Source: Spirosoma spitsbergense DSM 19989 (GTDB taxonomy: Bacteria; Bacteroidota; Bacteroidia; Cytophagales; Spirosomataceae). From it: a stretch of DNA of 64,000 bases. The notes beneath the pieces were generated by a model. That model did no database searches and was not told the origin of the DNA. It saw only the letters and a program-made list of their open reading frames with translations. Positions within the stretch are counted from its first letter, which is position 1. Each line of letters opens with the position of its first letter. The stretch covers positions 1-64,000 of the forward strand of contig NZ_KB893581.1 of the NCBI RefSeq assembly GCF_000374085.1. The letters run 5' to 3'. The position numbers and the translations under genes are program-made. This document shows, piece by piece, positions 33,606-63,965 of this stretch.

Positions 33606-36020
33606 TCACTCACTCCGCAGTGACTTCACCGGATTCATCATCGCAGCTCTCACGCTCTGGAAACTCACCGTCAGCAGGGCAATACTCACCGCCAACAGAC
33701 CCGCACCGGCAAACATCCACCACTCGATGTCAATTTTATAGGCGAAGTCCTGCAACCAGCGATTCATGGCATACCAGGCCAGCGGACTGGCGATAACAAT
33801 AGCGATGAGTACCAACCGCAGGAAATCTTTGGAGAGTAAGGTAACAATACTACTCACACTGGCACCCAGCACCTTTCGGATGCCGATTTCCTTTGTTCGC
33901 TGCTCAGCCGTGAAGGTGACCAGCCCGAACAGACCCAGACACGATACAAAAATTGACAGAATCGAGAAATACAGAATGATGCGGCCCGTGCGCTGTTCGG
34001 CGCGGTACTGCGCATCCAGCTCCTGATCGACGAAGCCATAACTAATGGGGTTGTTTGGTTCATACTTTTTGTAGAGCGATGCTATATCGGCAATGGTACG
34101 CGGCACCTGACCGGGGGTAGTTTTGACCAGCAAGTTGAAATACGGATTGTCGGGGCGAAACCGGAAAATAAACGGCTCGATAGCATCACGCAGCGGGCGG
34201 AAGTGAAAATCTTTCAACACACCCACGATAAGGCCCGATGGTCCCCAGAACTTTACGCGCTTACCAATGGCCTGCGCCGGGGTCCAGCCCATCCGTTTGG
34301 CCGCTGTTTCGTTAATCATGAACGCACCCATTATCGAGGATGTATCGGATCGAATTTTCCATGAGAAATTCCGCCCGGCCGCCAGTTGCATCCCGGTCGT
34401 ATTCATGAAATCAGCGTCGATGTTCATGTTCGTAATCAAAAACTGGTTGTCAGGCCGTTGCCCTTCCCACTCAATAGTTGAGGAGTTAATCATGTCGACC
34501 AGCGCACCGGTTGTGGCCGAAGCAACCGCTACGCCGGGGAGTTGCTGAACATCGCGTTTGAGTCGAAGAGCATTATTCCGCAGGTCGCCTTTCATCCGGA
34601 TGTACAATAACTGCGACTGATCGAAACCCAGCTTCCGGTGTTGCATGAACGCTAACTGCCGGTAAATGACCACGCTGCCAATGGTCAGTACTACCGCCAG
34701 CGCGAACTGCCCCACCACCAGCGACTGCCGGAACGTGCGGCCTGATTTTACCGCTAACCCCAGCGAGTTAACCGTTCCTTTCAGTACCTGCGCCGGTCGG
34801 AACGATGAGAGGAAAAACGCCGGGTATAGACCTGCCAATAAACCGACAACTCCCGTCAGTAAGGTAAGTGCCAGCCAGAACAGAGGTTCGCCAGTAGGAA
34901 CGACTAATGTCTTGCCCGACAGATCATTGAAAAGCGGCAGCAAGGTTTGTAGCAACAACAACGACACCGAAACCGCTAGGCTTGTCATCAGCAATGATTC
35001 GCCCAGAAACTGCCCAATCAAGCCGGACCGGCTGGCCCCAACCGTTTTCCGAACGCCCACTTCACGCGCTCGATGCGACGCGCGTGCGGTGGCCAGGTTG
35101 ATGAAATTGACGACTGCAATGAGCAGCACAATCAGCCCGACGGTCAGGAAAATGCGGACATACAGCATATCGTTGCGGGTGCCCCAGTCGGTGGCGAAAT
35201 CGAATTTCGACTTGAGGTAAATATCGCTCAGGGGTTGCAGGTAAAGGACAGCATCGTTTTCAGTATTGTAGCGTTTGATCTGCCCGCTCAGTTTGGCGGT
35301 AAAAGCGACTATATCAATGGGAGAATCGGCCCGGTCGGGTTTCAGGAGTACGTACGTATGGTAGCTATTACTACTCCATTTCTGGCTCCATTCGTCGGTT
35401 TTCTCCAGCCACTTATACGGCAGCAGTACATCGAACTGGATGTGCGACCGGACGGGTGGTTTTTTGGCCACGCCTACCAGCGTAAAGGGTTGCTGGTTGT
35501 TGAACGACAGCGGTTTGCCAATAATACCCAGCCGCCCCCAGTTAGCACCAAACAGCCGTTCGGCCATCGTTTCGCTAATGACCACATCGTTAGGGCTAAT
35601 CAACGCTTTTTGTATGTTACCAGCCACCAATGGAAAATTGAACAGGTCAAAAAACGACGGATCGACAATGAGCATATCCTGAGCCTCAACGGTTTTCTGT
35701 TTTTGGCTCAGCGTTCCCGACCACCGCCCAACGCGGGTTGTCTGCTGCACTTCGGGGAAGTCTTTAGTCAGCGTAGCTGCTAAAGGACCGGGCGTAACGG
35801 CCACGTTGAAGATACCACCGGGTTGTTTCTGCCGTTCGACCACGCGGTAAATCCGGTCATAGTTGGTATGGAACTTATCGTATTGAAGCTCATCCAACAC
35901 GTATAGGCCGATGGCCGTGCAACAGGTTATTCCCAGTGCCAGTCCTGTGATATTAACCAGCGAATAAACCTTACTTTTCCACAGGTTCCGGAGGGCGATT
36001 TTGAGGTAGTTACCGAACAT
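33606..36020 (-). CDS. FtsX/MacB-type ABC permease, two-half fused form (array member 1)
   Basis: 804 residues. TM1 is at 20-42, followed by a MacB_PCD-like extracytoplasmic domain (about 45-285). TM2-TM4 lie at 289-311, 342-362 and 380-404, then TM5 at 433-455 starts a second half, with a second extracytoplasmic domain to about 675 and three more segments (680-702, 732-751, 766-786). The cytoplasmic loop motif occurs twice: EVGVRKTVGAS near 320 and EIGIRKVLGAS at 711-721. Such a chain equals a fused dimer of four-helix MacB halves. No ATP-binding motif is present, so it depends on a separate ATPase. It is separated from the other three permeases of this group by a Uma2 gene on the other strand. 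Confidence 0.88.
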   Translation of the reverse strand: MFGNYLKIALRNLWKSKVYSLVNITGLALGITCCTAIGLYVLDELQYDKFHTNYDRIYRVVERQKQPGGIFNVAVTPGPLAATLTKDFPEVQQTTRVGRWSGTLSQKQKTVEAQDMLIVDPSFFDLFNFPLVAGNIQKALISPNDVVISETMAERLFGANWGRLGIIGKPLSFNNQQPFTLVGVAKKPPVRSHIQFDVLLPYKWLEKTDEWSQKWSSNSYHTYVLLKPDRADSPIDIVAFTAKLSGQIKRYNTENDAVLYLQPLSDIYLKSKFDFATDWGTRNDMLYVRIFLTVGLIVLLIAVVNFINLATARASHRAREVGVRKTVGASRSGLIGQFLGESLLMTSLAVSVSLLLLQTLLPLFNDLSGKTLVVPTGEPLFWLALTLLTGVVGLLAGLYPAFFLSSFRPAQVLKGTVNSLGLAVKSGRTFRQSLVVGQFALAVVLTIGSVVIYRQLAFMQHRKLGFDQSQLLYIRMKGDLRNNALRLKRDVQQLPGVAVASATTGALVDMINSSTIEWEGQRPDNQFLITNMNIDADFMNTTGMQLAAGRNFSWKIRSDTSSIMGAFMINETAAKRMGWTPAQAIGKRVKFWGPSGLIVGVLKDFHFRPLRDAIEPFIFRFRPDNPYFNLLVKTTPGQVPRTIADIASLYKKYEPNNPISYGFVDQELDAQYRAEQRTGRIILYFSILSIFVSCLGLFGLVTFTAEQRTKEIGIRKVLGASVSSIVTLLSKDFLRLVLIAIVIASPLAWYAMNRWLQDFAYKIDIEWWMFAGAGLLAVSIALLTVSFQSVRAAMMNPVKSLRSE

Positions 36021-36063: not shown

Positions 36064-36543
36064 ATGGAAGCCATGATTGACCAGGACGTATCGGCCTACG
36101 AACGAGAGCGAAACAAACCTATACCAACGCTACTGCACGGTGCCATTCAATTTAATATTGGGTTTGAACTTAAGATCGCTTATCCTAACCGGTTTCGGAT
36201 TGCCAGCGAGGTACTGCTTGATACCAAGCCAGTGGGTAGTACACCCGACGTGGTTTTATATCCACTAACTGAGCTCGATTTTAAACATGATCCATCCCGT
36301 CGGTCCGATGCTCCGTTACTGGTAGTTGAGATTCAATCTGCATCACAAAGCACCAAAGAGATGGTTGATAAACTAGACGCTTATTTCGATTTTGGTGTCT
36401 CGTCGTGCTGGATTGTTTTGCCCGATATTCGGGCGATATTGGTGTATGATAGCCCATCGCATTATAAGTTTTTCCATGATGATGTCGTTCTAACTGACCA
36501 AAAATTAGCTGTCGAACTGAGTTTGAAGAACATTTTTTCGTAA
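36064..36543 (+). CDS. Uma2 family PD-(D/E)XK nuclease-fold protein (complete)
   Basis: 159 residues. The nuclease-fold core is STPDVVLYPLTEL followed by PLLVVEIQSASQST, where Asp and Glu-x-Gln/Ser hold the PD-(D/E)XK positions. The N-terminus has LHGAIQFNIGFELK, the usual helix before the core. Length is close to the family norm of about 180. The cellular role of Uma2 proteins is unknown. It sits on the plus strand between two minus-strand permeases, starting 43 bp from one and ending 62 bp from the other, and so splits the array. Confidence 0.83.
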   Translation: MEAMIDQDVSAYERERNKPIPTLLHGAIQFNIGFELKIAYPNRFRIASEVLLDTKPVGSTPDVVLYPLTELDFKHDPSRRSDAPLLVVEIQSASQSTKEMVDKLDAYFDFGVSSCWIVLPDIRAILVYDSPSHYKFFHDDVVLTDQKLAVELSLKNIFS

Positions 36544-36605: not shown

Positions 36606-38996
36606 TCATTCGCTTCGTAAACTCTTTACCGGATTCATCAGCGCAGCTTTTATACTCTGAAAACTCACCGTCAGCAGGGCAATTCCAATGGCCAGTAAAC
36701 CCGCTCCGGCAAAGACCCACCAGGCAATGTCGACATGGTAGGCGAAGTTTTGCAGCCACTGCCCGGTGAGGTACCAGGCCAGCGGTAAGCCAATGATGAT
36801 GGCTATACCAACTAATTTCAGAAAGTCTTTGGACAATAGTGTAACTACGCTGCCGATAGATGCGCCCAGCACTTTGCGAATTCCGATTTCCTTCGTTCGG
36901 GCTTCGGCGGCAAAAGCGGCCAGCCCAAACAGACCCAGGCAGGCAATCAGCACGGCCAGAATGGTGAAGGAAAGGAGTATGTAGCCCTGTTTCTGTTCGG
37001 CCTGGTACTGTTGCGAAAAGTTCTCGTCCAGAAAATGGAACGTGGGTGTATCGGCCGCATCGAATTTATGGTAAACCTGACTGATGGTGGCCAGGGCTTC
37101 GGTCGTTTTTTCGGGGCGTATACGCACGTAGAGGTTATCCTTTTCTAAGGGAGCGGGCATCTGTATGACGAGCGGCTCAATCTTGTGCTGGAGCGAGTAC
37201 GTATGAAAATCGGCTACTACCCCAATCACCCTCGCTTCGGCGGTTTCGTCTTTCCCCACAAAATACTTAACGCGCTTACCGATGGGGTCCTGCCAGCCCA
37301 TTTTCTTTACCAATGCCTCATTTACCAGGACGGCACTCGTAGAATCAGTAGGGAAGGCTTCGGAAAAATTACGTCCCCTAAGCAGTTTAATCTGCATGGT
37401 ACTCAGAAAATCGGCATCGACAGAAAACTGTTGAACAACCTGCGTAGCCGTTGACATAACACCATCCTGCTCGAAGAACAGCCCATTGCTGCCAATATTG
37501 TTGTTGCCGATGGGGTTAGTAGCTGCCGAGGTAGCTTCGATAAACGGACTCTTGTTCAGTTCATCTTTCAGGGCGTTTACCTGTTGCCTCGACTCGTTGT
37601 TATTGAGGTGAAATGTTAGCACCTGCTCTTTGTTGAAGCCCAGATTTTCCTGCTGCACATAATTCATCTGCCGATAAATCATGGCCGAACAGGCGATCAG
37701 GGCAACGGCAGCTGCAAACTGAAACACCACCAGCGATTGCCGGAAACGAACCTTTCCCAGCTGATTGCCCAATTGCCCCTTGAGGGCCACAACTGGCCGA
37801 AAGCCGGACAGGACCAGGGCCGGATACAACCCGCTACCCACGCCCAGGAGTCCTACGAACAAAACGGCTAAGCCAACCGTCACAATCGGGCCGTACTGCG
37901 TGAGCGACAACGACCGACCCGCCAATTCATTGAACCACGGCAGTAAACCATTGGCCAGAAGCGTCGCCAGTACCCCGGCGAATAATGCCATCAGCAATGA
38001 TTCGGTCATAAACTGGCCAATAAGCTGCCCTCGCCGGGAGCCAATAGCTTTTCGAACGCCTACCTCACGGGTGCGGGTGACGGACCGGGCAATGTACAGA
38101 TTCACGTAGTTGATACCAGCCATAAACAGCACCAACGCAGCAATGATGGCAAAAACCGCCACTGTTTTAGCATCGCCGTTCGGGCCGATCTCGTAGTCGA
38201 GGTGCGAGTGCAGGTGAATGGAGGTAAGGGGCTGAAGTTCCATTCGGTAGTCCATACCACCTTTCGTTTCTTTTTCGAGGTATTTCGCGTAAAAACCAGT
38301 GAGTTTACCCTCCAGCGTTTTAGGGGTACTGCCTTTTGACAGTAGCAGATAGGTGTAGAGGTTGAAGTTTTGCCAGCCATCGGTATAGTTAGCGGGCAAC
38401 GACCGCAGGGCACTGAATTGCAAATGCGAGTTGGCGGGCACATCGGCGATAACACCGGTTACCCTATTGACGAAATGATTGCTGAACTCGATGGGTTGAC
38501 CAACTGCCTTGCGGGCATCACCAAACAGTTTTTCGGCCAGCGTTTCGGTCAGCACAATGCTCTCCGGCCGGGCCAGCGCGGTAGTTGGGGAGCCGTACAG
38601 GAACGGAAACGTGAATACATCGAATACCGTGTTGTCCGTAAAGAAAATGTCGCCGGCTTCAATCTTCTTATCACGGTACGTGATTATACCACCGCCTTCG
38701 GTCGAGAAACGGACCGTTTTTTCAACCTCCGGGTAATCGCTTTTGAGAGCAGCCGCAAACGGGGCCGAGGTAGGGGCCAGTTGCAGGTTGCCACCGGGCC
38801 ACGTTGCGTACTGCACCACCCGTACAATGCGGTCGGCGTTGGCGTGGAACCGGTCGTAGCTTAATTCGTGCGCGATGTACAAGCCCATGAGAGCAACGGC
38901 GGTCATGCCAATGCCCATGCCCACAATATTCAGCGAACTGAAGAGTCGGTTCTTCCACAAATTGCGGAAAGCGATTTTGAGATAGTTGGTGAGCAT
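36606..38996 (-). CDS. FtsX/MacB-type ABC permease (array member 2)
   Basis: 796 residues with eight predicted membrane segments. It opens MLTNYLKIAFRNLWKNRLFS, and coupling motifs are EVGVRKAIGS near 320 and EIGIRKVLGAS near 703. The tail VDIAWWVFAGAGLLAIGIAL leads to NPVKSLRSE. The extracytoplasmic parts differ from its neighbours and carry IVRVVQYATWPGG, QVVQQFSVDADF and DPIGKRVKYFVGK. Last gene of a three-gene unit (43853 to 36606); the gap to permease 3 is 12 bp. Confidence 0.87.
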   Translation of the reverse strand: MLTNYLKIAFRNLWKNRLFSSLNIVGMGIGMTAVALMGLYIAHELSYDRFHANADRIVRVVQYATWPGGNLQLAPTSAPFAAALKSDYPEVEKTVRFSTEGGGIITYRDKKIEAGDIFFTDNTVFDVFTFPFLYGSPTTALARPESIVLTETLAEKLFGDARKAVGQPIEFSNHFVNRVTGVIADVPANSHLQFSALRSLPANYTDGWQNFNLYTYLLLSKGSTPKTLEGKLTGFYAKYLEKETKGGMDYRMELQPLTSIHLHSHLDYEIGPNGDAKTVAVFAIIAALVLFMAGINYVNLYIARSVTRTREVGVRKAIGSRRGQLIGQFMTESLLMALFAGVLATLLANGLLPWFNELAGRSLSLTQYGPIVTVGLAVLFVGLLGVGSGLYPALVLSGFRPVVALKGQLGNQLGKVRFRQSLVVFQFAAAVALIACSAMIYRQMNYVQQENLGFNKEQVLTFHLNNNESRQQVNALKDELNKSPFIEATSAATNPIGNNNIGSNGLFFEQDGVMSTATQVVQQFSVDADFLSTMQIKLLRGRNFSEAFPTDSTSAVLVNEALVKKMGWQDPIGKRVKYFVGKDETAEARVIGVVADFHTYSLQHKIEPLVIQMPAPLEKDNLYVRIRPEKTTEALATISQVYHKFDAADTPTFHFLDENFSQQYQAEQKQGYILLSFTILAVLIACLGLFGLAAFAAEARTKEIGIRKVLGASIGSVVTLLSKDFLKLVGIAIIIGLPLAWYLTGQWLQNFAYHVDIAWWVFAGAGLLAIGIALLTVSFQSIKAALMNPVKSLRSE

Positions 38997-39008: not shown

Positions 39009-41429
39009 TTATTCAGATCGTAAACTCTTTACCGGGTTCATCAGGGCGGCTTTTACACTCTGGAAACTCACCGTCAACAAGGCAATCCCCACAGCCAGTA
39101 AACCGGCCAGCGCAAACATCCACCATTCGATAGCGACTTTGTATTCGATGTCTTTCAGCCAGTTGCTCATCACATACCAGGCTACGGGCGACGCAATGAC
39201 GAGGGCAATGGCGACTAACTTGATAAAGTCGAAGGAAAACAATCCGAAAATATTGGCCATCGACGCGCCCAGTACTTTCCGAATGCCTACCTCCTTGGTG
39301 CGGGCTTCGGCCATAAACGCCACCACACCGTAAAGTCCTAAACAGCCGATGAAAATAGCAATGCCCGCCAGCAATCGGAACAGGGCGAACAGCCGTTCTT
39401 CGTTTCGGTAGAAATTATTGACGGCTTTATCCACAAACTCATACTTGAACACAAAATCGGGGAAAGCAGCGGTCCACACTTTCTCAACCGTCTTCAACAA
39501 CCCGCTGATAGCCGCAGCGTTAGTGGCCTGTGGGGTAAGCTTAATGTTCATCAGGCGATAAGTATCCCGAACAGTGGTGATGACGCAGGGTTGCGTGCGC
39601 TGATGCAGCGAGAAGGTATTGAAGTCGCGAACAACGCCCACAATGGGAATTTTAACTTTACTCCCGTTCAGCCCCGATAGCGTTTTGCCCAGTAGTTTCT
39701 GTGGGTCGGGGATACCTATTTTTTTAGCAAACGATTCGTTGACAACCAGTTCGCGGATGGTATCGGCGGGCAGGGGTTTGCGACCCGCTATTAGTTTCAG
39801 CCCGTAGGTTTGAAAATACGACGTGTCGGCCGGGCGCATCACCACCGCAAAATCCGCTTCTTTATCCGCATTCTCAAACCGGAAACTGGTCCACCAGTTG
39901 CCCTTTGCCGAAGGCGTAGACAAACTATAACTCATTGACTGAATAGCGGGTTGCCCCAGTAGTTTGGCCGAGAGCGATTCCAACTGACCCGGTTTCTTTC
40001 CATCGGGCAGCGGAATAGTAACAACGGCTTCTTTGGTGTAGCCGAGGTCGGCGGAGCGGAAATGCTGCATCTGACTATAGGCCACGATGGTGCCGATAAT
40101 GAGCATCTGCGAAATGGCAAACTGCCCCACAATCAAACTCCGGCGTAAGGTCAACTGCCCTTTCCCTACCGACCTGATTTTCCCTTTCAGAGCCAGCACG
40201 GGCTGATAACCCGAAAGCACCAAAGCTGGATAGAAACCCGCCAGTATAGTGGTACATACAGCTAGAAACAGCAAAAAACCGAGGATGGGTGCATGGAAAA
40301 GAGCTACCTGCTCCAGCTTTATATCGAGCAGCGTAACAACATAAGGCAAGGCACAATACGCAACAAACAGGGCTAGTACGACAGACAAGCCCGTCAGCAG
40401 GCCGGTTTCGCCCAGAAACTGCCGCACCAACTGCCCCTGCGAACTACCCAGCGTTTTACGGATACCTACTTCTTTAGCCCGCCGAATGGCCTGGGCAGTG
40501 GCTAAATTAATGAAGTTGACACAGGCTGTAACAAGGATAAACAGGCCAATCAGCGCCATCACCCAAATCGTTTGTTTACTCACGGTACGATTGGCAAAAT
40601 TGGCCGAGTGCGTATCGAAGTGAATTTGCGTCAGGGGTTGCAGTTCGTAGCGAATATTTTTGGCATCGTCCGGCTTTTGGTATTTGTTCACAAACCCAAC
40701 GAGTTGCCGCTCCATCGCCTGTGGCGTTTGGGCTTCGGGCAGCATCAGGTAAATCTGGGCCTGACTGGAGTTCGACTGCCAGTCGTCCCACGAGGTATTG
40801 GCCCCGAACTGTTTCAGGGAGGCAAATGACAGCAGCACCTCAAACGGCATACTGCTCGTAACGGGCGGGTCCTGCACGATGCCCGTTACGACAAAATCCA
40901 TTTTGTTCTCCACCCGAATCCGTTTGCCCATCGGATTGGCACTGCCGAAGTATTTGCGAGCCATCGACGCCGACAGTACCACCGTATTCGGGTTGCTGAG
41001 CGACGTTTCGGGGCTCCCCGCTTGCCAGTTGAAGTCGAACAGGCGAAAATAGGCCGGTTCGACAAACGCCATTACGCCCTCTTCTTCCTCAAATTTCTTT
41101 TGAGCATCGGTACGCACCACGCCCTCGGCTTCATGAACGAGCGTCACCTGCCGTTTAATAGCCGGAAAATCGGTGCGCAGTGCCGCCAGGGCTGGCAACG
41201 GAATACCTACGTTCCGCCCGTCACTTTCGGCGTTTTTATAAGCCGTAACCAACCGGTAAATGCGGTCGGCTTGAGTGTTGTGCCGGTCATAGCTCAGTTC
41301 GTAGCGAATAGCCAGAAACAGCAACAGGCAGCAGGCCAGCCCAAAAGTGAGGCCCACTACATTGATAACCGTATAATTCCAATTGCGCCGAAGGGTGCGT
41401 AGGGCCGTTGTGAAATAGCTTTTCAGCAT
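39009..41429 (-). CDS. FtsX/MacB-type ABC permease (array member 3)
   Basis: 806 residues with eight predicted membrane segments. Start MLKSYFTTALRTLRRNWNYT is less like the MLTNYLKIA type of others. Motifs are EVGIRKTLGS and EVGIRKVLGAS. The second extracytoplasmic domain has RELVVNESFAKKIGIPDP. The C-terminal IEWWMFALAGLLAVGIAL and NPVKSLRSE match the common tail. Middle gene of the three-gene unit, 12 bp from each neighbour, so coupled translation is likely. Confidence 0.87.
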   Translation of the reverse strand: MLKSYFTTALRTLRRNWNYTVINVVGLTFGLACCLLLFLAIRYELSYDRHNTQADRIYRLVTAYKNAESDGRNVGIPLPALAALRTDFPAIKRQVTLVHEAEGVVRTDAQKKFEEEEGVMAFVEPAYFRLFDFNWQAGSPETSLSNPNTVVLSASMARKYFGSANPMGKRIRVENKMDFVVTGIVQDPPVTSSMPFEVLLSFASLKQFGANTSWDDWQSNSSQAQIYLMLPEAQTPQAMERQLVGFVNKYQKPDDAKNIRYELQPLTQIHFDTHSANFANRTVSKQTIWVMALIGLFILVTACVNFINLATAQAIRRAKEVGIRKTLGSSQGQLVRQFLGETGLLTGLSVVLALFVAYCALPYVVTLLDIKLEQVALFHAPILGFLLFLAVCTTILAGFYPALVLSGYQPVLALKGKIRSVGKGQLTLRRSLIVGQFAISQMLIIGTIVAYSQMQHFRSADLGYTKEAVVTIPLPDGKKPGQLESLSAKLLGQPAIQSMSYSLSTPSAKGNWWTSFRFENADKEADFAVVMRPADTSYFQTYGLKLIAGRKPLPADTIRELVVNESFAKKIGIPDPQKLLGKTLSGLNGSKVKIPIVGVVRDFNTFSLHQRTQPCVITTVRDTYRLMNIKLTPQATNAAAISGLLKTVEKVWTAAFPDFVFKYEFVDKAVNNFYRNEERLFALFRLLAGIAIFIGCLGLYGVVAFMAEARTKEVGIRKVLGASMANIFGLFSFDFIKLVAIALVIASPVAWYVMSNWLKDIEYKVAIEWWMFALAGLLAVGIALLTVSFQSVKAALMNPVKSLRSE

Positions 41430-43853: not shown

Positions 43854-43888
43854 AAGACAACGTTCATAAACGTAATTTAAAACGTTCT

Positions 43889-43903: not shown

Positions 43904-43956
43904 AAAAGGCAACCTGTTCATTATCAAACAAGAAGCAGAAGAATTATTTTTGACGG

Positions 43957-54133: not shown

Positions 54134-56521
54134 CTATTCGGAACGAAGTGATTTTACCGGGTTCATCAGGGCAGCTTTGATGCTCTGGAAACTCACGGTG
54201 GCCAGGCAGATAACCAGCGTAAGCAGACAGGTTACGATGAAAATCCAGGGACCTATATCGGTTTTATACGGAAAATCCTGTAACCATTTGTACATCGAAA
54301 ACCAGGCAATCGGGATAGCGATGGGAAAGGAAAACAAAACCAGTTTCGTGAAGTCTTTGGAAAGAAGCAGCACAACACTGCCGACACTCGCTCCCAGCAC
54401 TTTGCGAACCCCAATCTCTTTTACCCGTTGCTCGATGGTGAACGTAGCCAGGCCGAAAAGCCCCAGGCAGGCAATCAGAATGGTCAGGGCGGAGAACGCC
54501 GTAAAAATCCGTCCCCGCCGTTCATCTGCCCGGTAAGCCGACTCAAAATCCTGATCGAGAAAGCGGTATTCAAACAGCCGGTCGGGATAGGTTTCGCGCC
54601 ATTTCTGACCGATGAACGCGACCGTTTTCTCCACGTCTTTCGGCTGTATCTTAATGTGAATAACCGAATTGTAGGGCCGGTACAGAATAATCATCGGTTC
54701 AATGGGGCTGTAAAGCGACTGCTGGTGAAAGTCTTTTACCACGCCCACTACTTTGGCCTCAGGCGGAGAGGGGCGTCCTGCCTGAGGCAGGCCACCGAGA
54801 AGCACTTTTTTGCCCAGTGGTTCTTTCCAGTTCAGCCGCTCCACAGCGGCCTGATTGATAATGACCCCGTTGCTAGTATCGGCGGGGATATCGGCAGAAA
54901 AATCACGCCCGCTCGTCACCTTCATACCCATTGTTTTCAGATAATCCTGATCGATACCCATTGGCTTGAACCCCATCTCCTTCAGCCCGGCGTTGGTTTC
55001 TACCGCAAAAATGACCCGCCCGCCAATGTCGCTCGCTGGCGAAGAAGCCGTGGCTACTCGCCGGATGTTGGGGTTGGCCAGCAGCGATGATCGGAGTGCT
55101 CCATACCGGGCACGGGGCTGACTATCCTGGTAGTTGATGGTCATGACCTGCTCCCGGTCGTAGCCCAGATCATGATTACGCATAAATGCCAGTTGTTTGT
55201 ACACCACCCAGGTGCAGATGAGCATGATCAGAGAAATGGAAAACTGACCCACCACCAGCGTTTTCCGGAAGAAACTCCCACCTTTGCTATTGAACGAGCC
55301 TTTGAGCACAACCGCCGGTTCAAACGACGACAGATAAAAGGCCGGATAACTGCCGCTGATAAAGCCTGTGAAGACAACAATGGCGAAGGTAATGAGCAGA
55401 AACCGGGGCGTCAACAACGCCACAAACTGAATCTCCTTGCCCGAAACGGTATTAAAGAATGGCAGCAGGGCCAGAACCAGCAACAGGCTGGCGGCCAGGG
55501 CCAGGGCCGTCATGAGCACCGACTCGGTCAGAAACTGCCCCATCAATCGCCCGCGTTCCGACCCCAGCACTTTACGCAGGCCTACTTCTCTGGCCCGTTT
55601 GGCTGAGCGGGCCGTAGCCAGGTTCATGTAGTTGATACTGGCAATGAGCAGCATCAAAAACGCCACGGCACTGAACGTGTACACATAGCCAATGTTGCCA
55701 TTACTTTCTCCTTCCAGGTTAGAATGGAGGTGAATGCTGGTGAGTGGTTGCAACTCATACGTAACCTTGATGCCCATTTTCTTAAAAATAGGCCCGATAT
55801 ACTTGTCGTACACCTGCGGAAATTTGCTTACGAGCACCTTTGTATCGAAGTTTTCGGGCAGAACCAGGTAGCTGTATATGTAAAAACCACCCCAGTTGGT
55901 GTCCTGCCTCCGCTCGTTCTGGCCCGTAGAAATCAGGGCATTGAAGGTAAAGTGCGAGTTTTTGGGGACATCCTCCATTACGCCCGTTACTTCATAAAAC
56001 GTGGTGTCGTTCGTTTGGAGCGACTGCCCCAGGGCACTGCCTGATCCGAAGAATTTCTGCGCCGTTTTTTGGGTCAGAACCACGCTGCCGGGCTGGTCGA
56101 GGGCCGTTCGCGAATCGCCTTCTACGAATTTGTAGCTGAACACATCGAACACGGTAGAGTCGGCAGAATACACATCTTCTTCGTAAAACCGTTTCTCGCC
56201 CTGCCGGAACATGACCCGGCCGTAGGGAAAGAACCGTACGTAGTTTTTGACGAAGGGATAATCCTGCTTCAGTGTTTTGGCCAAAGGTGGTTGTGTGCTG
56301 CTCCACCGGTTGACTTTGTCCGGCTCGTTAATGTGCGAAACGATCCGATAAATCTGCGAAGCATTGGCCTGATAGCGGTCGTAGCTTAATTCATCCGTTA
56401 CGTACAGCAGCAACAGCAGGCCGCAGGTAACGCCGATGGTCAGCCCCAGAATATTTATCGCGCTGTAGAACTTGTCTTTGCGCAGATTTCGCCAGGCGAT
56501 TTTGATAAAGTTCGCTAACAT
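54134..56521 (-). CDS. FtsX/MacB-type ABC permease (array member 6)
   Basis: 795 residues with eight predicted membrane segments. Start MLANFIKIAWRNLRKDKFYS; motifs EVGLRKVLGS and EIGVRKVLGAS. The last membrane helix differs from most (IGPWIFIVTCLLTLVICL) though the end is again NPVKSLRSE. The second extracytoplasmic domain has ADTSNGVIINQAAVERLNW. It lies 43 bp upstream of permease 5 and 62 bp downstream of permease 7 in the transcription order. Confidence 0.87.
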   Translation of the reverse strand: MLANFIKIAWRNLRKDKFYSAINILGLTIGVTCGLLLLLYVTDELSYDRYQANASQIYRIVSHINEPDKVNRWSSTQPPLAKTLKQDYPFVKNYVRFFPYGRVMFRQGEKRFYEEDVYSADSTVFDVFSYKFVEGDSRTALDQPGSVVLTQKTAQKFFGSGSALGQSLQTNDTTFYEVTGVMEDVPKNSHFTFNALISTGQNERRQDTNWGGFYIYSYLVLPENFDTKVLVSKFPQVYDKYIGPIFKKMGIKVTYELQPLTSIHLHSNLEGESNGNIGYVYTFSAVAFLMLLIASINYMNLATARSAKRAREVGLRKVLGSERGRLMGQFLTESVLMTALALAASLLLVLALLPFFNTVSGKEIQFVALLTPRFLLITFAIVVFTGFISGSYPAFYLSSFEPAVVLKGSFNSKGGSFFRKTLVVGQFSISLIMLICTWVVYKQLAFMRNHDLGYDREQVMTINYQDSQPRARYGALRSSLLANPNIRRVATASSPASDIGGRVIFAVETNAGLKEMGFKPMGIDQDYLKTMGMKVTSGRDFSADIPADTSNGVIINQAAVERLNWKEPLGKKVLLGGLPQAGRPSPPEAKVVGVVKDFHQQSLYSPIEPMIILYRPYNSVIHIKIQPKDVEKTVAFIGQKWRETYPDRLFEYRFLDQDFESAYRADERRGRIFTAFSALTILIACLGLFGLATFTIEQRVKEIGVRKVLGASVGSVVLLLSKDFTKLVLFSFPIAIPIAWFSMYKWLQDFPYKTDIGPWIFIVTCLLTLVICLATVSFQSIKAALMNPVKSLRSE

Positions 56522-56583: not shown

Positions 56584-59010
56584 CTATTCGGAACGAAGTG
56601 ACTTGACCGGGTTCATCAACGCCGTGGTAATCGTTTTACTACTAATGGACACTAGTACCAGAAACAGTACCGATAGGGCAGGTGCTGCGAAAAGCCACCA
56701 GCTTAGTTCGATGCGAACTGCATAATTGGCCAGCCAGTTGCTGACTAAAAAGTAGGTGATTGGCAGGCCAATGCCTATCGCAATAAGAACGGTTTTGATA
56801 AAATCGGTCGAGAGTAAAACCATCAGGTTGGCGGTGCTGGCCCCGATTACTTTGCGAATCCCAATTTCCTTCGTTCGTTTGGAAACGGTAAACGTCGCTA
56901 AACCGAACAGTCCCAGGCAGGAGATAAGAATGGCGAAGCCCGTCAATGCCCCAAACACCTGCTGAAAGCGGTCATCTGCTTTGTACTGTTTGTCGTACTC
57001 ACTATCCATGAAGAAATAGCTGAACGGCGAATACGGAAAATTAGCTTTATACACCTTTTTCAGCGTGGCGAGTTGGTCACTGGCGTTGCCCCCCGCAAAC
57101 TTGACACTGGCGAACGAATCGAAGTTGGGTGAGTACATATGGACGATGGGAATGTAGGCCGCCTTCGGTGATTCGTAGTGGTAGTTTTTAACAACGCCCC
57201 GAATCGTTGCCTGATGCCCCCAGAAATCTACCCGCTTGCCAATGGCTTCTTCGGGTGTTGGAATACCCCAGAGCCGGATGGTTTCTTCATTGACAATGAG
57301 TTGCCGGTTGGTGGTGTCCGAAAAACCCGGCCGGGTGGTAGCATCGAAGTTTTTACCCGCCAGCAGCTTGATGCCCATCAGGTCAATAAACGCCGTGTCT
57401 ATCCGGGTCAGGTAGTAATTATACGAGGTTTTCTTCGCGGCATCAGACAGATTGATGCCCGTCGTTGACGCCATTTGGGTCGATCCCAAGCCAGGTACGG
57501 TACCGGAAAGGGATACCGCTTTTACCTGAGCCTGATCGAGCAGCATCTGTCGAAACGCTCCGTAATCCTGCCGGGCATCACTTCCCACCGGAGCTTTCAC
57601 CACCAGGGTATGGTCGATGTTTACGCCTAAGTTTTGCTCCCGCAGAAAGTTGACCTGCCGATACACGGCGAAGGTTTGCACCAGCAGAATCAGGGTAATC
57701 GTAAATTGAAAAACCACCAGCGACTTTCGCAGTAGTGTGCCTTTAGTGGAGCGTGAGAAATTGCCTTTTAGGACCGTAACCGGATCGAAGGAAGACAGGA
57801 CAAAGGCCGGATAAAACCCCGACAGCAGAATGCTTAGTAACAGAAATGCCCCGGCGCTTTCCCAGAAAAACACGTCTCTGAATACGGTAAAGCCGTCCGG
57901 CAACCCTGCCACCTCCACAAACACCGGGCGAAAGGCAACTACCAACCCCACTGCCATGGCTCCGGCGACTAAATTTATCAGAACGGTTTCCGTGAAAATC
58001 TGCATTCTGATCTGTCCCTGGGTGGAGCCAACCACTTTTCTCATCCCAACTTCCCGCGCCCGGTCGAGGGCTTTGGCCGTGGTCAGATTCACGTAGTTGA
58101 CAAAGGCACTCAGAAGCACCAGAAACGCTACGCCCAGCAGAAAATACACCGACCGCGCTTCGCCATTGGGTTCAGTTTCAAAGGTTTTGTGGGAATACAG
58201 GTGAATGTCGCCAATCTTCTGGCCGATTACCCGCTCGTTTGTCATCTTTTTTTCGCTGACCAATCGGTCGCTGAAGGCCGCCAGCGATTTTATAAACCCT
58301 TCGTACCGGGTATTTTCGGCTAATTGTACATAGGTGTAGGTATTGTTGTTGTTCCAGTTGTCTTCCCATTCGCCAAAGTCCGACAGCATGGTCGGATAGG
58401 AAACAAGCATAGCAAATTTCAGGTGTGTATTGGCCGGGCTGTCCGGCACCACACCTACTATTTCCATCAGAACACTGCCTTCCGACTTGGGAATTTTCAG
58501 GGTTTTGCCCAGCACGTCGAGCGTCTTGAAATAGGTTAATGCCGTCTTTTCCGTCAGAATGACCTGCCTGGGTCTGGTAAAAAGACCCTGCTGACTTCCC
58601 CGTACAAGTGGGTAGTTGAACATGGAGAAAAAGGAAGAATCGACCGCATAGACGTTATTCATCAGGTAATAAGCCTCGTCAATCTGAACCGTCAAAGTAG
58701 GTCTCCGTAAGGGATAGACGCGGGTATAGTTGACTACCTCGTTCATTTCCCGTTTGGCTTTAGCCCCAGCCGGCGGATACATTTCGGCATCCTGCGCATC
58801 CACTGTGCCCCCGTTCATGTAGTCCGTGGTAAGCCTAACGATCCGGTCTGCCAGCGGATTTGATTGTTCGTAACTCAGCTCGAAGCGCACATACTGGATG
58901 ATGAGTAGTGCCACAGCCAGACCAGTGGCCAGACCAACTACGTTGATGAGCGAGAAGGTAGTGTCTTTCCTGATTATTCGCAGGGCAATTTTGAGGTAGT
59001 TGGTCAGCAT
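56584..59010 (-). CDS. FtsX/MacB-type ABC permease (array member 7)
   Basis: 808 residues. Start MLTNYLKIALRIIRKDTTFS; motifs EVGMRKVVGS and EIGIRKVIGAS. The C-terminal part is more diverged (SWWLFAAPALSVLFLVLVSI, then SSKTITTALMNPVKSLRSE) than in members 1, 2, 5 and 8, but the last nine residues are unchanged. The first extracytoplasmic domain carries DAQDAEMYPPAGAKAKREMN. The spacer before its ATG has G-tracts and a hairpin. Confidence 0.87.
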   Translation of the reverse strand: MLTNYLKIALRIIRKDTTFSLINVVGLATGLAVALLIIQYVRFELSYEQSNPLADRIVRLTTDYMNGGTVDAQDAEMYPPAGAKAKREMNEVVNYTRVYPLRRPTLTVQIDEAYYLMNNVYAVDSSFFSMFNYPLVRGSQQGLFTRPRQVILTEKTALTYFKTLDVLGKTLKIPKSEGSVLMEIVGVVPDSPANTHLKFAMLVSYPTMLSDFGEWEDNWNNNNTYTYVQLAENTRYEGFIKSLAAFSDRLVSEKKMTNERVIGQKIGDIHLYSHKTFETEPNGEARSVYFLLGVAFLVLLSAFVNYVNLTTAKALDRAREVGMRKVVGSTQGQIRMQIFTETVLINLVAGAMAVGLVVAFRPVFVEVAGLPDGFTVFRDVFFWESAGAFLLLSILLSGFYPAFVLSSFDPVTVLKGNFSRSTKGTLLRKSLVVFQFTITLILLVQTFAVYRQVNFLREQNLGVNIDHTLVVKAPVGSDARQDYGAFRQMLLDQAQVKAVSLSGTVPGLGSTQMASTTGINLSDAAKKTSYNYYLTRIDTAFIDLMGIKLLAGKNFDATTRPGFSDTTNRQLIVNEETIRLWGIPTPEEAIGKRVDFWGHQATIRGVVKNYHYESPKAAYIPIVHMYSPNFDSFASVKFAGGNASDQLATLKKVYKANFPYSPFSYFFMDSEYDKQYKADDRFQQVFGALTGFAILISCLGLFGLATFTVSKRTKEIGIRKVIGASTANLMVLLSTDFIKTVLIAIGIGLPITYFLVSNWLANYAVRIELSWWLFAAPALSVLFLVLVSISSKTITTALMNPVKSLRSE

Positions 59011-59047
59011 GGGTTTTATGGGTTTGGGGCGTGGGGTGCCCTACGCC
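59011..59047. repeat. G-tracts and hairpin in the spacer before permease 7
   Basis: On the plus strand GGG, GGG, GGGG and GGGG are separated by TTTTAT, TTT and CGT (59011-59036). GGCGTGGG (59028-59035) and CCTACGCC (59040-59047) pair as an 8-base stem with one G-T pair and reach the stop codon of permease 8. Confidence 0.7.
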
Positions 59048-61491
59048 TATTCGGAACGGAGTGATTTAACCGGGTTCATCAGGGCAGCTTTCACGCTCTG
59101 GAAACTTACCGTCATCAGGGCGATAACTACGGCCAGCAGACCTGCCCCGGCAAACATCCACCACTCGATATCAATCTTGTAAGCGAAATCGTCCAGCCAC
59201 TGACTCATGGCGTACCAGGCTATCGGTGATGCGATGAGGATGGCCAGCAGGACTAACTTCAGAAAGTCTTTCGATAACAGTGTTACAATACTGGCCACAC
59301 TCGCGCCCAATACTTTGCGAACGCCTATTTCTTTGGTGCGACTCTCAGCGGTAAAGATGGCCAGACCAAACAGACCCAGACAGGCAACGAAGATAGTAAG
59401 CCCGCTAAACAGCCCCAGTACCTGACCCGTTTGCTGCTCGGCCCGGTATACCGCGTTGAAATCATCGGCCAGAAACGAATACGCAAACGGCACATCGACG
59501 CCAGACGCGCTCCACTGACCACTAATCGTTTTCAGCAGACCTGCCACGTCACCCGTCTTCACGTTCACCAGGATGGTACCACTGTTGTCCCCCATCGTCA
59601 TCATCAGCGGGGTGATGCGCTCGTGCAACGACCTGAAGTGAAAGTCCCGCACAACGCCAATAACGCGGTACGTTTCTTTACTGCCATCATTGTTGGGTCT
59701 CGTAACGGTATGGCCAATGGCATCATTACCCCAGCCAAGTTGTTTGGCGGCCGTTTCATTGAGGATAATACCCGACGAATCGGTGCTGAAAGCCGGGGAG
59801 AAATTACGTCCGCCAGCCATCGTCATACCCAGCGTCGGAATGTATCGCTCATCCACATCGTACCGGATACCCTTAACATACTGCCCGGCCCTGTTGTCGC
59901 CGTAGACAAGGAAGTTATTGTTGTAGGAATGACCGGCTGGTACATAACCCGAAACGCTCGCGTTGATTACCCGAGAATCCTGTAAAAGTTGTTGCTGAAA
60001 CAAGGCCTCGTTTTTGCCCAGACGCCCCGTTTCATGCAGAACCAGTACCCGCTCTTTGTTGTAGCCGAGTTTGGTGTTTCGGATAAAGTTTAGCTGCTGC
60101 AAAACGACCACCGTACCAACAATGAGTACGAACGACAGACAAAACTGTATCACCACCAGCGCACTCCGCAGCGACACCCGCTGCCGACCTGCCGTAATCC
60201 GCCCCGCTCCCCGGAATGCCGTATCACCTTTCAGCACGGCAATCGGCTTAAACGACGACAGGAAAAAGGCCGGATAGCTACCGGCCAAAACACCTACCAC
60301 CAGCCCAAACAGCACTAAACCCGGCAACAGCCCCGGCAGGGTCAAAAAACTAAAGGTCAGATCATTACCTGTTATATCATTGAAGATAGGCAGACCCAGT
60401 AAAACCAGCCCAACGGCCAGCAGCAGAGCGATAGCCGTCAGCAATAGCGACTCGACCAGAAACTGCCAGACCAACGCGCTTCGTACCGACCCCATCACTT
60501 TACGAATGCCCACTTCAGCCGCCCGTTTGGTGGCCCCCGCCGTGCTGAGATTCATGAAGTTGAAAGCCGCAATCAGGAGCATGAACACGGCGATGGCACC
60601 AAACCCGTATACATACCGGATATCGCCCGACGGACTCAGGTCGTAGGCGAAATCGGAATGTAGGTGAATATCGGTCAGGGGTTGCAGTTTCAGGCCCAGG
60701 TCGTTGCCTGCCTCGCGAAATTTAATGAAAGGCATACCGAACGCCTGCTGAATTTCCGGCCCCATATACTTCTCAACGGCCTGGGGAAGTTTGGCCTCCA
60801 GTTGCTTATAGTCATACCCCACCGGCAACACGAGATAGGTGTAAAACTCCGACTGCATCCAGGAAGTCGCTTTAGCTTCGTCCAAACCCGCCATCGCCAT
60901 CAGGAAATCGAAATGCACGTGCGAATTATCGGGAAAATCGGCCATAACGCCAGTTATCTGTAGCGCCTGTTTACTGCCTTTCGGAGACAGCGTTTTGCCG
61001 ATAGGGTTCGCATCGCCAAAATATTTACGGGCCATCTTCTCCGTAATTACCACCGTGTTTGGCCGGAGCAGGGCAGTTTTGGGGTTGCCGTTCACCAGCG
61101 GAAAGCTAAAGACATCGAAAAAATTAGCGTCGGCGAAGGCAACGGCATTCTCCCGAACCAGGTCATTGCCTTTTTTCAGCAGGAGTTCGCCCGCGTGCCG
61201 AAGCCGGGTGGCTTCCAGCACTTCGGGATAGTCATGCAACAGGCTTTGGGCGGTTGGTGGCATCACATGGGCCTCGTTGATTTTGTTGCCGTTCATGTTG
61301 GCCCGGAACGTAACGCGCACAATACGGTCAGCTTTTGCATGAAACCGGTCGTAGCTCAGTTCATGATACACATACAGACCAATGAGCAGGCACGTAGCCA
61401 TGCCCAGCGCCAGTCCGGTAATGTTAATGAACGAGAAAACCTTGTTACGGAGCAGGTTCCTCCACGCAATTTTGATATAGTTACTCAACAT
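59047..61491 (-). CDS. FtsX/MacB-type ABC permease (array member 8)
   Basis: 814 residues with eight predicted membrane segments. Start MLSNYIKIAWRNLLRNKVFS; motifs EVGIRKVMGS and EIGVRKVLGAS. It shares with member 5 the GDTAFRGAG stretch before TM5 and with members 1 and 5 the tail IEWWMFAGAGLLAVVIALMT, so it is the closest relative of member 5. The second extracytoplasmic domain has SPAFSTDSSGIILNETAAKQ. It is 56 bp from permease 9. Confidence 0.88.
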   Translation of the reverse strand: MLSNYIKIAWRNLLRNKVFSFINITGLALGMATCLLIGLYVYHELSYDRFHAKADRIVRVTFRANMNGNKINEAHVMPPTAQSLLHDYPEVLEATRLRHAGELLLKKGNDLVRENAVAFADANFFDVFSFPLVNGNPKTALLRPNTVVITEKMARKYFGDANPIGKTLSPKGSKQALQITGVMADFPDNSHVHFDFLMAMAGLDEAKATSWMQSEFYTYLVLPVGYDYKQLEAKLPQAVEKYMGPEIQQAFGMPFIKFREAGNDLGLKLQPLTDIHLHSDFAYDLSPSGDIRYVYGFGAIAVFMLLIAAFNFMNLSTAGATKRAAEVGIRKVMGSVRSALVWQFLVESLLLTAIALLLAVGLVLLGLPIFNDITGNDLTFSFLTLPGLLPGLVLFGLVVGVLAGSYPAFFLSSFKPIAVLKGDTAFRGAGRITAGRQRVSLRSALVVIQFCLSFVLIVGTVVVLQQLNFIRNTKLGYNKERVLVLHETGRLGKNEALFQQQLLQDSRVINASVSGYVPAGHSYNNNFLVYGDNRAGQYVKGIRYDVDERYIPTLGMTMAGGRNFSPAFSTDSSGIILNETAAKQLGWGNDAIGHTVTRPNNDGSKETYRVIGVVRDFHFRSLHERITPLMMTMGDNSGTILVNVKTGDVAGLLKTISGQWSASGVDVPFAYSFLADDFNAVYRAEQQTGQVLGLFSGLTIFVACLGLFGLAIFTAESRTKEIGVRKVLGASVASIVTLLSKDFLKLVLLAILIASPIAWYAMSQWLDDFAYKIDIEWWMFAGAGLLAVVIALMTVSFQSVKAALMNPVKSLRSE

Positions 61492-61547: not shown

Positions 61548-63965
61548 TTATTCACTGCGTAATGAGTTAGCCGGGTTTACCAGCGCAGCTTTATAGGCAA
61601 TAATGGCCACGATAAGCGCAGTAAGCATAAAGGCAAAAAAGCCGATAACAACAAATGGGAGTTGCTGTACAGTAATATGATAGGCGAAATTTTTTAGCCA
61701 TTCATTAATCACATACATCGCTACAGGCCAACTAATGAGCAGGGCAAATCCGATGAGATACACATACTCTTTCGTAGCTGACTGGACAATTGACAGAGCT
61801 GAAGCCCCCAGCACTTTGCGAATGCCGATTTCTTTGGTGCGGGCCACGGTCAAAAAAATGGTAATACCTGCAATGCCAATGCATGCCAGAAAAATGGCAA
61901 TCAGATTGAAGCAGAACAGGAGACTGGCTGTTTGGTGATCCTGTTTGTACAAACCGGCCAGTTGTTCGTCGAGGTAGTCTATTTCGAGCGGGCGTTGCTC
62001 GTTCAGGCCAGCGTATAGTTTCCGAATCCGGGCAACGGTTGCAGCCGTGGAGGTTGTGTCATACCAGACAATGGTTCGCCCGTCCATACGAAGACTGTCT
62101 ACTACGGTGATGAAGTAAGGCTCTACCTTTTCGTGCAGTGAAAAAACGTTAATGTCGTCAAAAATACCTGCTACCGTGAACGGCAGCCCGATCTGCCCGT
62201 TTTCACTGACGTACTCCGGCTCAGTAATAATGGTTTTGCCAATAACTGATTCGACCGGCAGCTGCTCTTTTGCCGCTATCTGTTCGGCTGCCGTTCGGTT
62301 AACAAGGGTAAACGTGGCGGGGCGGTTGCGGCCCGATGGCAGTGGGGTCGTTTTAAGACCGTAGGCGTTCAGCGCTGCCGGGTCTAGGTATAGCTGCCGG
62401 GCATCGTCAAACACTACGTCGGAGCCCTGAAGTTTATACGTCACCTGGTTGAAAGGGGCGATGCCAAAAGAAGACCCGTTTCCTACCAATTTAATGCCGG
62501 GAACCTGCCGTAGCTTTTCTTGAAACAGGGTCTGTTTACCGGGTGACGAGTAAGCGTATAAAATACCCTCTTTCCGAAAGCCAAGGTCTTTGCTTTCGAC
62601 GTACTTGATCTGCTTTATTATGAAATAAGAAACCGATGTGATGCCAATAAGAATCGAAAATTGACTTAGAATCAGGTATTTACGAATTGGGAAATTCTGG
62701 TACTGGTTGCTCCGCAGGTTCTCTTTGAACAAGGTAACTGCTTTCTTTCCGGCCAGATTGACTGCGGTAAAACTGCTGGCCAATGCCCCTGTGAACAGGG
62801 CCAGCAGTAGTAGGGCCAGAACCGCCAGCGGATCGTTGAACACATTTGCCGGAATAGCTACCCCCATCAGGTTATTGAACAGCGGGATGCACCCTGCAGT
62901 CAGGACAGCCACAAATGGCAGGGCCATCAGTGCCAGCAAAATCCCTTCTGTAATAAACTGAATGGCAATGGATGTTTGATGCGCTCCCAGTGCTTTTTGC
63001 ACCCCAATTGCTTTACTCTGTTTCGACTTGATAGCCAGTGAGAGATTGGCGTAGTTGAACAGCGTGATGATGCTGATGAACAGGGAAAATCCCCCAATTA
63101 GTAGTAGGTATAGCACGTTGCCAGGCGGCTTGAGTTCGTAAAGAATAGTGGAGTGCAGGTGAATAGCTGTAATAGGCTGCAAAAAATGCTGTTTGTAGAG
63201 CGGGTCGCGGACCAGGTTGGGATTGAAGGCCGCTATGGCCCCGTTAATGGCAGCCGTGACCCGTTCAGTATCCGCATTGTTGTCCGTCTGCACATACATC
63301 CGACTTCCCCAGTAGGGGATGCGCGGCTGGCTGACAGCCATACTGAAGTCAAAGTGTGACTGCTTCGAAATATCGTCGATAATAGCCGCTATGATATAGG
63401 TTTCTGATCCGACGGTTATCCGCTTTTGAATCACGTCCGGGTTGCTTAGTGCTTCATCGCCGAAGAGTTTGCGAGCAGTAGTAGCTGTTAGCATCACCTT
63501 ATTGGTCCCACTGGCGAAATTCTGAAAACTACCCTGCCGCAAGGCCCAGGTAAACAAGGCGCAGAAAGCCTGCGGAGTATTGGTTGTCAGTACGTTTCTC
63601 TCCTGAATCTTTCGGCCTTCAGCCTCTATAAATACGGGCACTTCCGAGGTGACAAACTGGGCCGCATCGGCAACGCCGGTTGCTTTTTTAAGGAATTCGA
63701 GCTGTAGTTGCTGCTCCTTGTCGGTGCTGGCATCCCAGCGGGCAAAACCAATGATGCTATAGTCCTGCGAGCGGTAGGTGCGAGCCAGTCGGTAGATCGA
63801 GCCGGCATTTCGATGAAATGAATCATACCCTAACTCAAACCGGATGTAGCTAATGGCTACGTAGGCCACGAAAAGTCCAATAATCAGGCTCAGCAAATTC
63901 AGGACCGTAAAGGAACGGTTTCGAACCAGGTTTCTGAAAGCGATTTTGAGGTAATTGGTAAACAT
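61548..63965 (-). CDS. FtsX/MacB-type ABC permease, diverged (array member 9)
   Basis: 805 residues. Start MFTNYLKIAFRNLVRNRSFT fits the array, but much of the chain is diverged. The first coupling motif reads AIGVQKALGA instead of EVGxRKxxGS; the second is the usual EIGIRKVLGAS. The C-terminus is NPANSLRSE, the only one of nine without VK. The first gene of the five in transcription order; only 35 bp upstream are in the window, so the promoter is not seen. Confidence 0.85.
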   Translation of the reverse strand: MFTNYLKIAFRNLVRNRSFTVLNLLSLIIGLFVAYVAISYIRFELGYDSFHRNAGSIYRLARTYRSQDYSIIGFARWDASTDKEQQLQLEFLKKATGVADAAQFVTSEVPVFIEAEGRKIQERNVLTTNTPQAFCALFTWALRQGSFQNFASGTNKVMLTATTARKLFGDEALSNPDVIQKRITVGSETYIIAAIIDDISKQSHFDFSMAVSQPRIPYWGSRMYVQTDNNADTERVTAAINGAIAAFNPNLVRDPLYKQHFLQPITAIHLHSTILYELKPPGNVLYLLLIGGFSLFISIITLFNYANLSLAIKSKQSKAIGVQKALGAHQTSIAIQFITEGILLALMALPFVAVLTAGCIPLFNNLMGVAIPANVFNDPLAVLALLLLALFTGALASSFTAVNLAGKKAVTLFKENLRSNQYQNFPIRKYLILSQFSILIGITSVSYFIIKQIKYVESKDLGFRKEGILYAYSSPGKQTLFQEKLRQVPGIKLVGNGSSFGIAPFNQVTYKLQGSDVVFDDARQLYLDPAALNAYGLKTTPLPSGRNRPATFTLVNRTAAEQIAAKEQLPVESVIGKTIITEPEYVSENGQIGLPFTVAGIFDDINVFSLHEKVEPYFITVVDSLRMDGRTIVWYDTTSTAATVARIRKLYAGLNEQRPLEIDYLDEQLAGLYKQDHQTASLLFCFNLIAIFLACIGIAGITIFLTVARTKEIGIRKVLGASALSIVQSATKEYVYLIGFALLISWPVAMYVINEWLKNFAYHITVQQLPFVVIGFFAFMLTALIVAIIAYKAALVNPANSLRSE

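Follow-up and report, generated by a model that had tools for sequence, protein, structure and literature searches.

A candidate common ATPase for an array of fused two-half FtsX/MacB-type permeases in Spirosoma spitsbergense

The first 64,000 nucleotides of contig NZ_KB893581.1 of Spirosoma spitsbergense DSM 19989 (assembly GCF_000374085.1), in the following referred to as the window, carry nine large permease genes that each fuse two FtsX/MacB halves in one chain, while no gene for an ATPase energising them is found among them, which raises the question of where their motor is encoded and whether they share it. We consider it likely that these nine belong to a larger set of single-chain permeases of the MacB/LolC type (Type VII ATP-binding cassette, ABC) that uses one common motor, for which a candidate is encoded on another contig of the same genome. 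This view, reached by comparing sequences, is based on a gene neighbourhood kept in all 13 Spirosoma genomes searched, on orthology, on co-occurrence throughout the order Cytophagales and on conservation at the presumed ATPase-docking helices, all of which support the proposal of the initial annotation that many permeases work with a common ATPase encoded elsewhere.

All nine open reading frames (ORFs) named in that annotation are present on the minus strand of the contig, here called C194, where they cover most of positions 33606–63965. Each was found to match FtsX (PF02687) twice above the Pfam gathering score, and MacB_PCD (PF12704) likewise matched twice in seven of them and once in the other two. 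The combination of FtsX with a MacB-like periplasmic domain that marks Type VII (MacB/LolC/FtsX) permeases is hence found in every chain, whereas an ABC_tran match indicative of a fused ATPase domain is found in none of the nine. The loop of the second half follows the pattern E(I/V)G(I/V)RKV(L/I)GAS in 9/9, and the last residues read NPVKSLRSE in eight chains and NPANSLRSE in one, just as had been described; in the first gene this tail, a predicted minor coupling helix, is encoded at 33609–33635 of the minus strand. The extracytoplasmic domains had been called widely different, which holds in numbers as well: across 19 paralogues of the genome, mean pairwise identity in 40-residue windows amounts to 0.17–0.36 in these domains as compared to 0.50–0.60 in the last three full windows, so divergence is clearly unequal along the chain.

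The array is longer than the nine genes initially counted, a number that is correct for the window only. C194 encodes 14 such permeases reaching to position 83498, five of them beyond the window edge, all full-length with 783–832 aa and interrupted by two blocks of other genes at 44–51.6 kb and 73.7–81 kb. As the first ABC_tran match on the contig occurs at 135 kb and the first OEP/TolC match at 154.8 kb, the reported lack of ATPase and TolC-like genes in the window stands, and the DNA just past position 64000 holds the five further permeases instead of a dedicated ATPase.

The candidate motor is encoded on contig C173 of this 7.5 Mb draft genome (237 contigs), where a DarC-like HlyD-type adaptor, a DarD-like ATPase (C173:16234-16911, 225 aa) and four permeases follow each other on one strand. 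The best NCBIfam match of the adaptor by E-value is NF038010 with 200 bits, that of the ATPase NF038007 with 279.6 bits, and the coupling helix and tail of the four permeases are of the same kind as those of the C194 permeases. No DarD-like ATPase of this genome scores between 244 and 279 bits, and relatives of the C173 adaptor or ATPase were not detected in C194:1-97800 at the thresholds of that search. The ATPase gene lies 16 kb and the nearest C194 permease 33.6 kb from the nearer end of their respective contigs, therefore at least about 50 kb separate the two if the draft assembly is right, and the 14 C194 permeases, if working, must be served in trans. When five Type-VII-like ATPases were compared across five congeners, the C173 ATPase was the most conserved with a mean of 94.9% versus 85.5–92.8%, as expected for a part with many clients, the margin over the ATPase on contig C161 being small. 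Contig C237 furthermore encodes a solitary array-type permease extended by an N-terminal prefix domain (NF038404).

The arrangement on C173 recurs across the genus. In all 13 genomes, comprising the window genome and 12 congeners of which five were inspected at the sequence level, a permease resembling ADOP, the acidobacterial duplicated orphan permease, lies no more than 2 kb downstream of the best DarD-like ATPase (273–280 bits) and in the same orientation. In the closed genome of congener G001, a single adaptor–ATPase pair is succeeded by 41 permeases on the same strand, which extend over 124 kb, with at least eight permeases outside the array among the matches listed, and one such pair precedes 23 permeases in G006 and 16 in G011. 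The array of G003 gives 16 matches above 300 bits, two of which overlap and look like a single broken gene, and a third of which lacks the usual tail; a weak match of 81 bits on the other strand was left out of this count. In G008, three permeases were found in the 20 kb stretch covered.

Reciprocal-best orthologs at 62–84% identity link seven of the nine window permeases to such ATPase-headed arrays. These are the fused permeases at 36606–38996 (796 aa; 65–72% in G001, G006, G011 and G003), 39009–41429 (806 aa; 69% in G001, G006 and G011), 41442–43931 (829 aa from a TTG start, shortened to 803 aa if translation begins at the ATG 26 residues further in, reading MLRN...; 75–81% in G001, G006 and G011), 51634–54090 (818 aa; 72–81% in G006 and G001), 54134–56521 (795 aa; 83% in G001), 56584–59010 (808 aa; 84% in G011) and 59047–61491 (814 aa; 62–65% in G001, G006, G011 and G003), all on the minus strand. 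The exceptions are the likewise fused minus-strand permeases at 33606–36020 (804 aa, tail NPVKSLRSE), for which the five congener regions yielded no reciprocal-best ortholog and a top match of 44%, and at 61548–63965 (805 aa), the most divergent of the set and the one ending in NPANSLRSE, with a top match of 29% in these regions. At any identity, 11 of the 14 C194 permeases have a reciprocal-best ortholog. The nearest named relatives of the permease at 54134 belong to Spirosoma (80–84%), followed by Larkinella and Dyadobacter.

A tree of 110 permeases, built as a quick tree with 25 open forks among 107 and with long-branch warnings that include the permease at 61548, places the C194, C173 and congener genes interleaved, the 61548 permease forming its longest end branch. 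The 14 C194 rows require 14 label changes, 12 of which are forced by starred branches, which rules out a recent in-place tandem duplication and describes the C194 array as a set of old lineages instead of a recent local expansion.

Beyond the genus, 118 genomes drawn evenly from the order were searched for both families, with seven permease candidates scored per genome, whereby seven is a lower bound and zero means that none of those reached E ≤ 1e-50. At least two permeases were counted in 38 genomes, and 37 of these have a strong DarD-like ATPase (E below 1e-78), which was found in 6 of 18 genomes with exactly one permease and in 5 of 62 with none found, corresponding to a Fisher p of 9e-21 for two or more versus none when shared ancestry is ignored. 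At E ≤ 1e-66, the DarD model is unspecific and matches in 109 of the 118 genomes as well as in 8 of 14 control genomes, hence DarD-like ATPases in the broad sense do not track the arrays and only the strong type does. We inspected the strong-ATPase locus in 20 of these genomes, chosen by us so as to cover different genera, 19 of them with seven permease matches plus G088. The adaptor adjoins the ATPase in all 20, and array-type permeases then follow on the same strand in 15, two of these being partial (G029 at a contig end, and G083). In G031, G040, G060 and G066, no permease was found within about 15 kb of the strong ATPase, and in G055 the contig ends too early. Many permeases are also remote from any ABC ATPase: with permeases counted at E ≤ 1e-40, 27 of 30 in G089 and 23 of 26 in G060 lie more than 10 kb away.

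Relatives of permease 54134 were examined at 79 named loci, taken from the best 80 of 289 matches. A DarD-like ATPase above 330 bits stands directly upstream in eight of them (L069, L079, L082, L086, L101, L109, L110 and L112) and about 9 kb upstream with permeases in between in L043, and the other 70 show no DarD-like match above 300 bits in their flanking DNA, which is short for some. The ATPase is absent from all 15 Dyadobacter loci, where the permease is solitary (13) or has one neighbour permease (2). The permease family is therefore found behind an adaptor–ATPase pair of its own, in motor-headed arrays, and solitary.

In MacB, according to excerpts of PMC5985334, the major coupling helix lies between helices 2 and 3 and the minor one at the C-terminus, and both touch the ATPase. 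Among 116 array permeases, the most conserved ten-residue windows are 702–711 (EIGVRKVLGA) and 784–793 (ALMNPVKSLR), and the fourth most conserved, 309–318, is the coupling helix of the first half. An AlphaFold2 model of permease 54134 (mean pLDDT 83.9) shows eight long helices in its DSSP string and two periplasmic domains, with short helices at the conserved sites (310–319, 700–708 and 788–794), of which the tail has low confidence with a mean of 53 for the last block. In this model of one permease, each four-helix half also has its large periplasmic domain inserted after the first helix and before the second. Its matches in the PDB comprise YbbP, MacB, LolCDE and BceB, with YbbP (9ge6) ranking best at an E-value of 1.7e-18, followed by MacB; as the TM-score to YbbP is only 0.46, the fold class is supported and not the details. 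The conserved windows thus match the places of the predicted ATPase-docking coupling helices. A shared ATPase cannot be deduced from the motif by itself, since such coupling elements are common in the superfamily and a similar loop is found in a permease on contig C114.

In the mechanism we propose, each chain is a pseudo-dimer whose halves each contribute four membrane helices and one periplasmic domain, and would dock two copies of the C173 DarD-like ATPase, as YbbP does with two YbbA. Docking would occur via the two major coupling helices, namely E[IV]G[IV]RKV[LI]GAS and its counterpart in the first half, together with the C-terminal minor helix NPVKSLRSE, and ATP-driven closure is predicted to move the two periplasmic domains and to feed the adaptor and a channel. 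The DarC-like adaptor and one of the TolC-like channels of the genome would probably complete an efflux or envelope machine with a presumed export function, the link to the adaptor being given by gene neighbourhood only. Substrate choice probably lies with the variable periplasmic domains, whose divergence is consistent with different substrates as well as with relaxed constraint.

Each part of this machine resembles a known system. ADOP (TIGR03434) was defined on permeases of Acidobacteria that are not known to have linked ATPases. It is the best NCBIfam model for all nine permeases, aligned from model position 5–8 to 803 of 803, and shares with them the two FtsX halves per chain, many paralogues and the lack of an adjoining ATPase in most copies. 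The nine score only 178.8–353.1 bits against a curated cut-off of 622.3, however, which was reached in none of the 118 genomes, and the Spirosoma permeases differ in that a motor and an adaptor were found at the array head. DarB, DarC and DarD (NF038008, NF038010 and NF038007) provide the second-best model for the permeases and the best models for the C173 adaptor and ATPase, but again below their curated cut-offs, with 67.5–183.4 bits versus 700 for the permeases, 200 versus 450 for the adaptor and 279.6 versus 375 for the ATPase, which is thus DarD-like only. The Dar operon, encoding the darobactin exporter, has one permease, whereas one adaptor–ATPase pair here precedes 4 to 41.

E. coli YbbAP(-TesA) likewise combines a duplicated single-chain permease with a separate ATPase and provides the top structural match. 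YbbP is described in excerpts of PMC12646458 as a duplicated single-chain Type VII permease that binds two copies of YbbA and has ten membrane helices, two of which link the halves, whereas our model has eight helices and no linking helices between residues 398 and 416. A YbbAP-like pair of its own is encoded on contig C172. MacAB-TolC is similar in its periplasmic domain, four-helix half and coupling helices, but MacB is a homodimer with a fused ATPase (PMC5985334, in part), which the array permeases lack. Sharing of a motor has precedents in import. In the ABC importer systems of MsmK, MceG and FhuC, one ATPase is reported to energise several transporters. The present case would concern Type VII permeases, of which as many as 41 are linked to a single motor. 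For such permeases, searches of openly licensed PMC papers yielded no report of ATPase sharing.

Some of the genes lying between the permeases give weight to a different idea, in which the permeases would act as BceAB-like sensors that report envelope threats to histidine kinases and the ATPase would serve signalling flux. The first interrupting block encodes a glutathione-independent formaldehyde dehydrogenase (44296–45486, minus strand; TIGR02819 above cut-off), an HbpS-like haem-degrading family protein (45590–46081, minus), an AraC-family regulator (46177–47103, plus), a LytTR response regulator (47108–47812, minus), a beta-lactamase-family serine hydrolase (47809–49266, minus; PF00144), an ExbD-like protein (49358–49930, plus) and a histidine kinase (49897–51591, minus; PF06580). 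The kinase gene lies 42 bp downstream of permease 51634–54090, and a similar kinase/ExbD/LytTR set recurs inside the G003 array as judged by eye from N-terminal sequences, the G003 look-alike kinase being placed downstream of a permease other than the best match of 51634. Upstream of the C173 adaptor gene there is furthermore another kinase gene, together with one for a sigma-54 response regulator. On the other hand, only one kinase was found embedded among 14 permeases, the Bce-type permeases described in excerpts of PMC5985334 differ from the modelled eight helices and two domains by a pair of linking helices and a single periplasmic domain, and the constant HlyD-like adaptor suggests a tripartite exporter. 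We thus regard a sensory role as unlikely, if still worth bearing in mind.

A sigma-54 regulon joining C173 and C194 was also considered and rejected, as a scan for -24/-12 sites gave no support: the sites found versus those in mononucleotide shuffles numbered 4 versus 2.6 in C194:1-97800, 0 versus 1.0 in the C173 stretch, 3 versus 2.2 in G001, 1 versus 0.6 in G006 and 2 versus 0.4 in G011.

Several observations have to be weighed against a single common motor. Further DarD-like ATPases are encoded on C161 (243.8 bits) and C113 (241.6 bits) and are themselves well conserved with 92.8% and 91.5%, a second DarD-like ATPase of 265–267 bits occurs in congeners G004, G005, G009 and G011, and in G060 a second strong one (277 bits) is accompanied by its own permease, amounting to two motors. 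A coupling-type motif, EIGIRKSLGAT, is also present in the single-half MacB-like permease on C114. Concerning the co-occurrence, the cut of 1e-78 was chosen after the data had been seen, the counts ignore kinship and were limited to seven permease candidates per genome. Five genomes have a strong ATPase and no permease at the threshold, one of which, G088, has three permeases behind its ATPase by a purpose-built model, and the fragmented assembly G090 has three permeases without a strong ATPase. Some array genes of relatives are apparently broken, in G003 and in G060, where one carries two stops, and the split between C173 and C194 depends on a draft assembly of 237 contigs. Lastly, the search for a TolC-type partner by linkage was unsuccessful, since none is encoded on C173 or near the C194 array; the genome as a whole contains 54 OEP domain matches, often two per gene.

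Alternatively, the array permeases might use several ATPases, those of C113 and C161 working beside or instead of that of C173. Both are 48–50% identical to the C173 ATPase, and their contigs are without an FtsX permease match. Yet the lone single-half MacB-like permeases of this genome, found on C114 and C232, need ATPases as well, and the 109 genomes matched by the broad DarD-like search include most of those without a found array permease. We therefore judge the use of several ATPases to be quite improbable. C113 itself carries an operon in the order ATPase-OEP-HlyD (L018:4375-8422), of which the lone half-permeases of C114 and C232 could be the partners.

The shared tail might in principle testify to the history of the genes instead of their function, as recent gene conversion among tandem copies would also produce nearly fixed tails and loops. 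Same-codon use over the last 24 codons is indeed raised (0.452 versus 0.349 expected), and the longest exact runs cluster near the C-terminus: all but two of the top 15 end no earlier than residue 697, and the longest, of 44 nt, is shared by two C173 genes. However, the tail codons vary, same-codon use over the last 80 codons (0.434 versus 0.366 expected) is only slightly above that of other conserved stretches, nucleotide identity over the last 30 codons averages only 0.64 with a maximum of 0.86, and the C237 gene, although unlinked, retains a nearly identical tail, as do permeases of other genera. On these grounds of codon usage and nucleotide identity, conversion is rejected as the main cause of the tail and very improbable as an explanation of tail and loop, although it may have acted rarely and locally. 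From the two options left by the initial annotation, purifying selection is thus the one we favour as the main cause. That the array only stores orphan permeases which decay or work without ATP is scarcely credible, for although the array itself lacks an ATPase and copies do decay (the split gene and the abnormal-tail gene of G003, the interrupted gene of G060), all 14 C194 genes are full-length, the coupling helices are their most conserved parts and seven of nine window genes keep their cross-species orthologs.

Returning to a motor that serves the C194 permeases from a distance, their separation from C173 appears to result from a move of the permease block. The 14 genes are flanked by genes at 27969–29288 and C194:92382-93323, which we tentatively call dihydroorotase-like and malate-dehydrogenase-like, respectively. 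These flanks are 63 kb apart in C194, and their homologues lie about 8 kb apart in G001 and G006, remote from the arrays of those genomes. In G011, G004 and G008 they are not neighbours, and in G003 the second flank has no match at the threshold.

Regarding the remaining content of the arrays, the AraC/HbpS/formaldehyde dehydrogenase trio recurs inside the G001 array, again judged by eye from N-terminal sequences, with a look-alike of the dehydrogenase near 2468–2469 kb and an AraC regulator of near-identical N-terminus at 2466725–2467639. The beta-lactamase-family hydrolase gene overlaps that of the LytTR regulator by 4 bp (window 47108–49266), and a gene for a Uma2-type putative nuclease lies between permeases on the plus strand at 36064–36543. 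The second gap in the C194 array contains genes for a TPR-CHAT protein (C194:75185-77992) and a sigma-70 region 2 protein (79529–80140). The arrays of C173, G001 and G003 also contain other genes of 147–149 aa with mutually similar starts, which run antiparallel to the permease genes; the one of C173 gives no Pfam match. Small proteins with signal-peptide-like starts and, by eye, a similar N-terminal pattern are encoded just ahead of the first permease, following the ATPase, or in between two permeases (L003:8934-9458, L120:1377-2006 and L121:883-1497); none of the three has a Pfam match, and they are candidate accessory factors. The orthologs C194:66368-68734 and G001:2475478-2478135 are 80% identical, but one is about 97 residues shorter than the other (788 versus 885 aa), which suggests that an N-terminal prefix domain was gained or lost; such a prefix was recognised by model only in the C237 gene. 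At the ends of contigs C7, C42 and C52, an 829-aa duplicated permease with the tail SNPVNALRDE is encoded (L007:9131-11620, L008:8781-11270 and L009:41-2530) within a common stretch of 2644 bp that is 100% identical in two pairs, the third pair being 99.6% identical over 2682 bp; it represents either a multi-copy gene or an assembly repeat.

While the parts are of known kinds and the orphan label already exists, three things are new within the literature covered, namely large arrays headed by a motor, a common ATPase proposed for the orphans and a block displaced from its motor. On balance we lean towards the wider view that a single DarD-like ATPase and its adaptor serve dozens of exchangeable, anciently diverged permeases of the Cytophagales, which would explain the orphans of this order and perhaps the ADOP of Acidobacteria. 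A candidate motor can thereby be named for permeases whose annotation is that of orphans with no known function, and if the assignment is true, deletion of a single gene would disable the whole repertoire, making dozens of genes testable in one strain.

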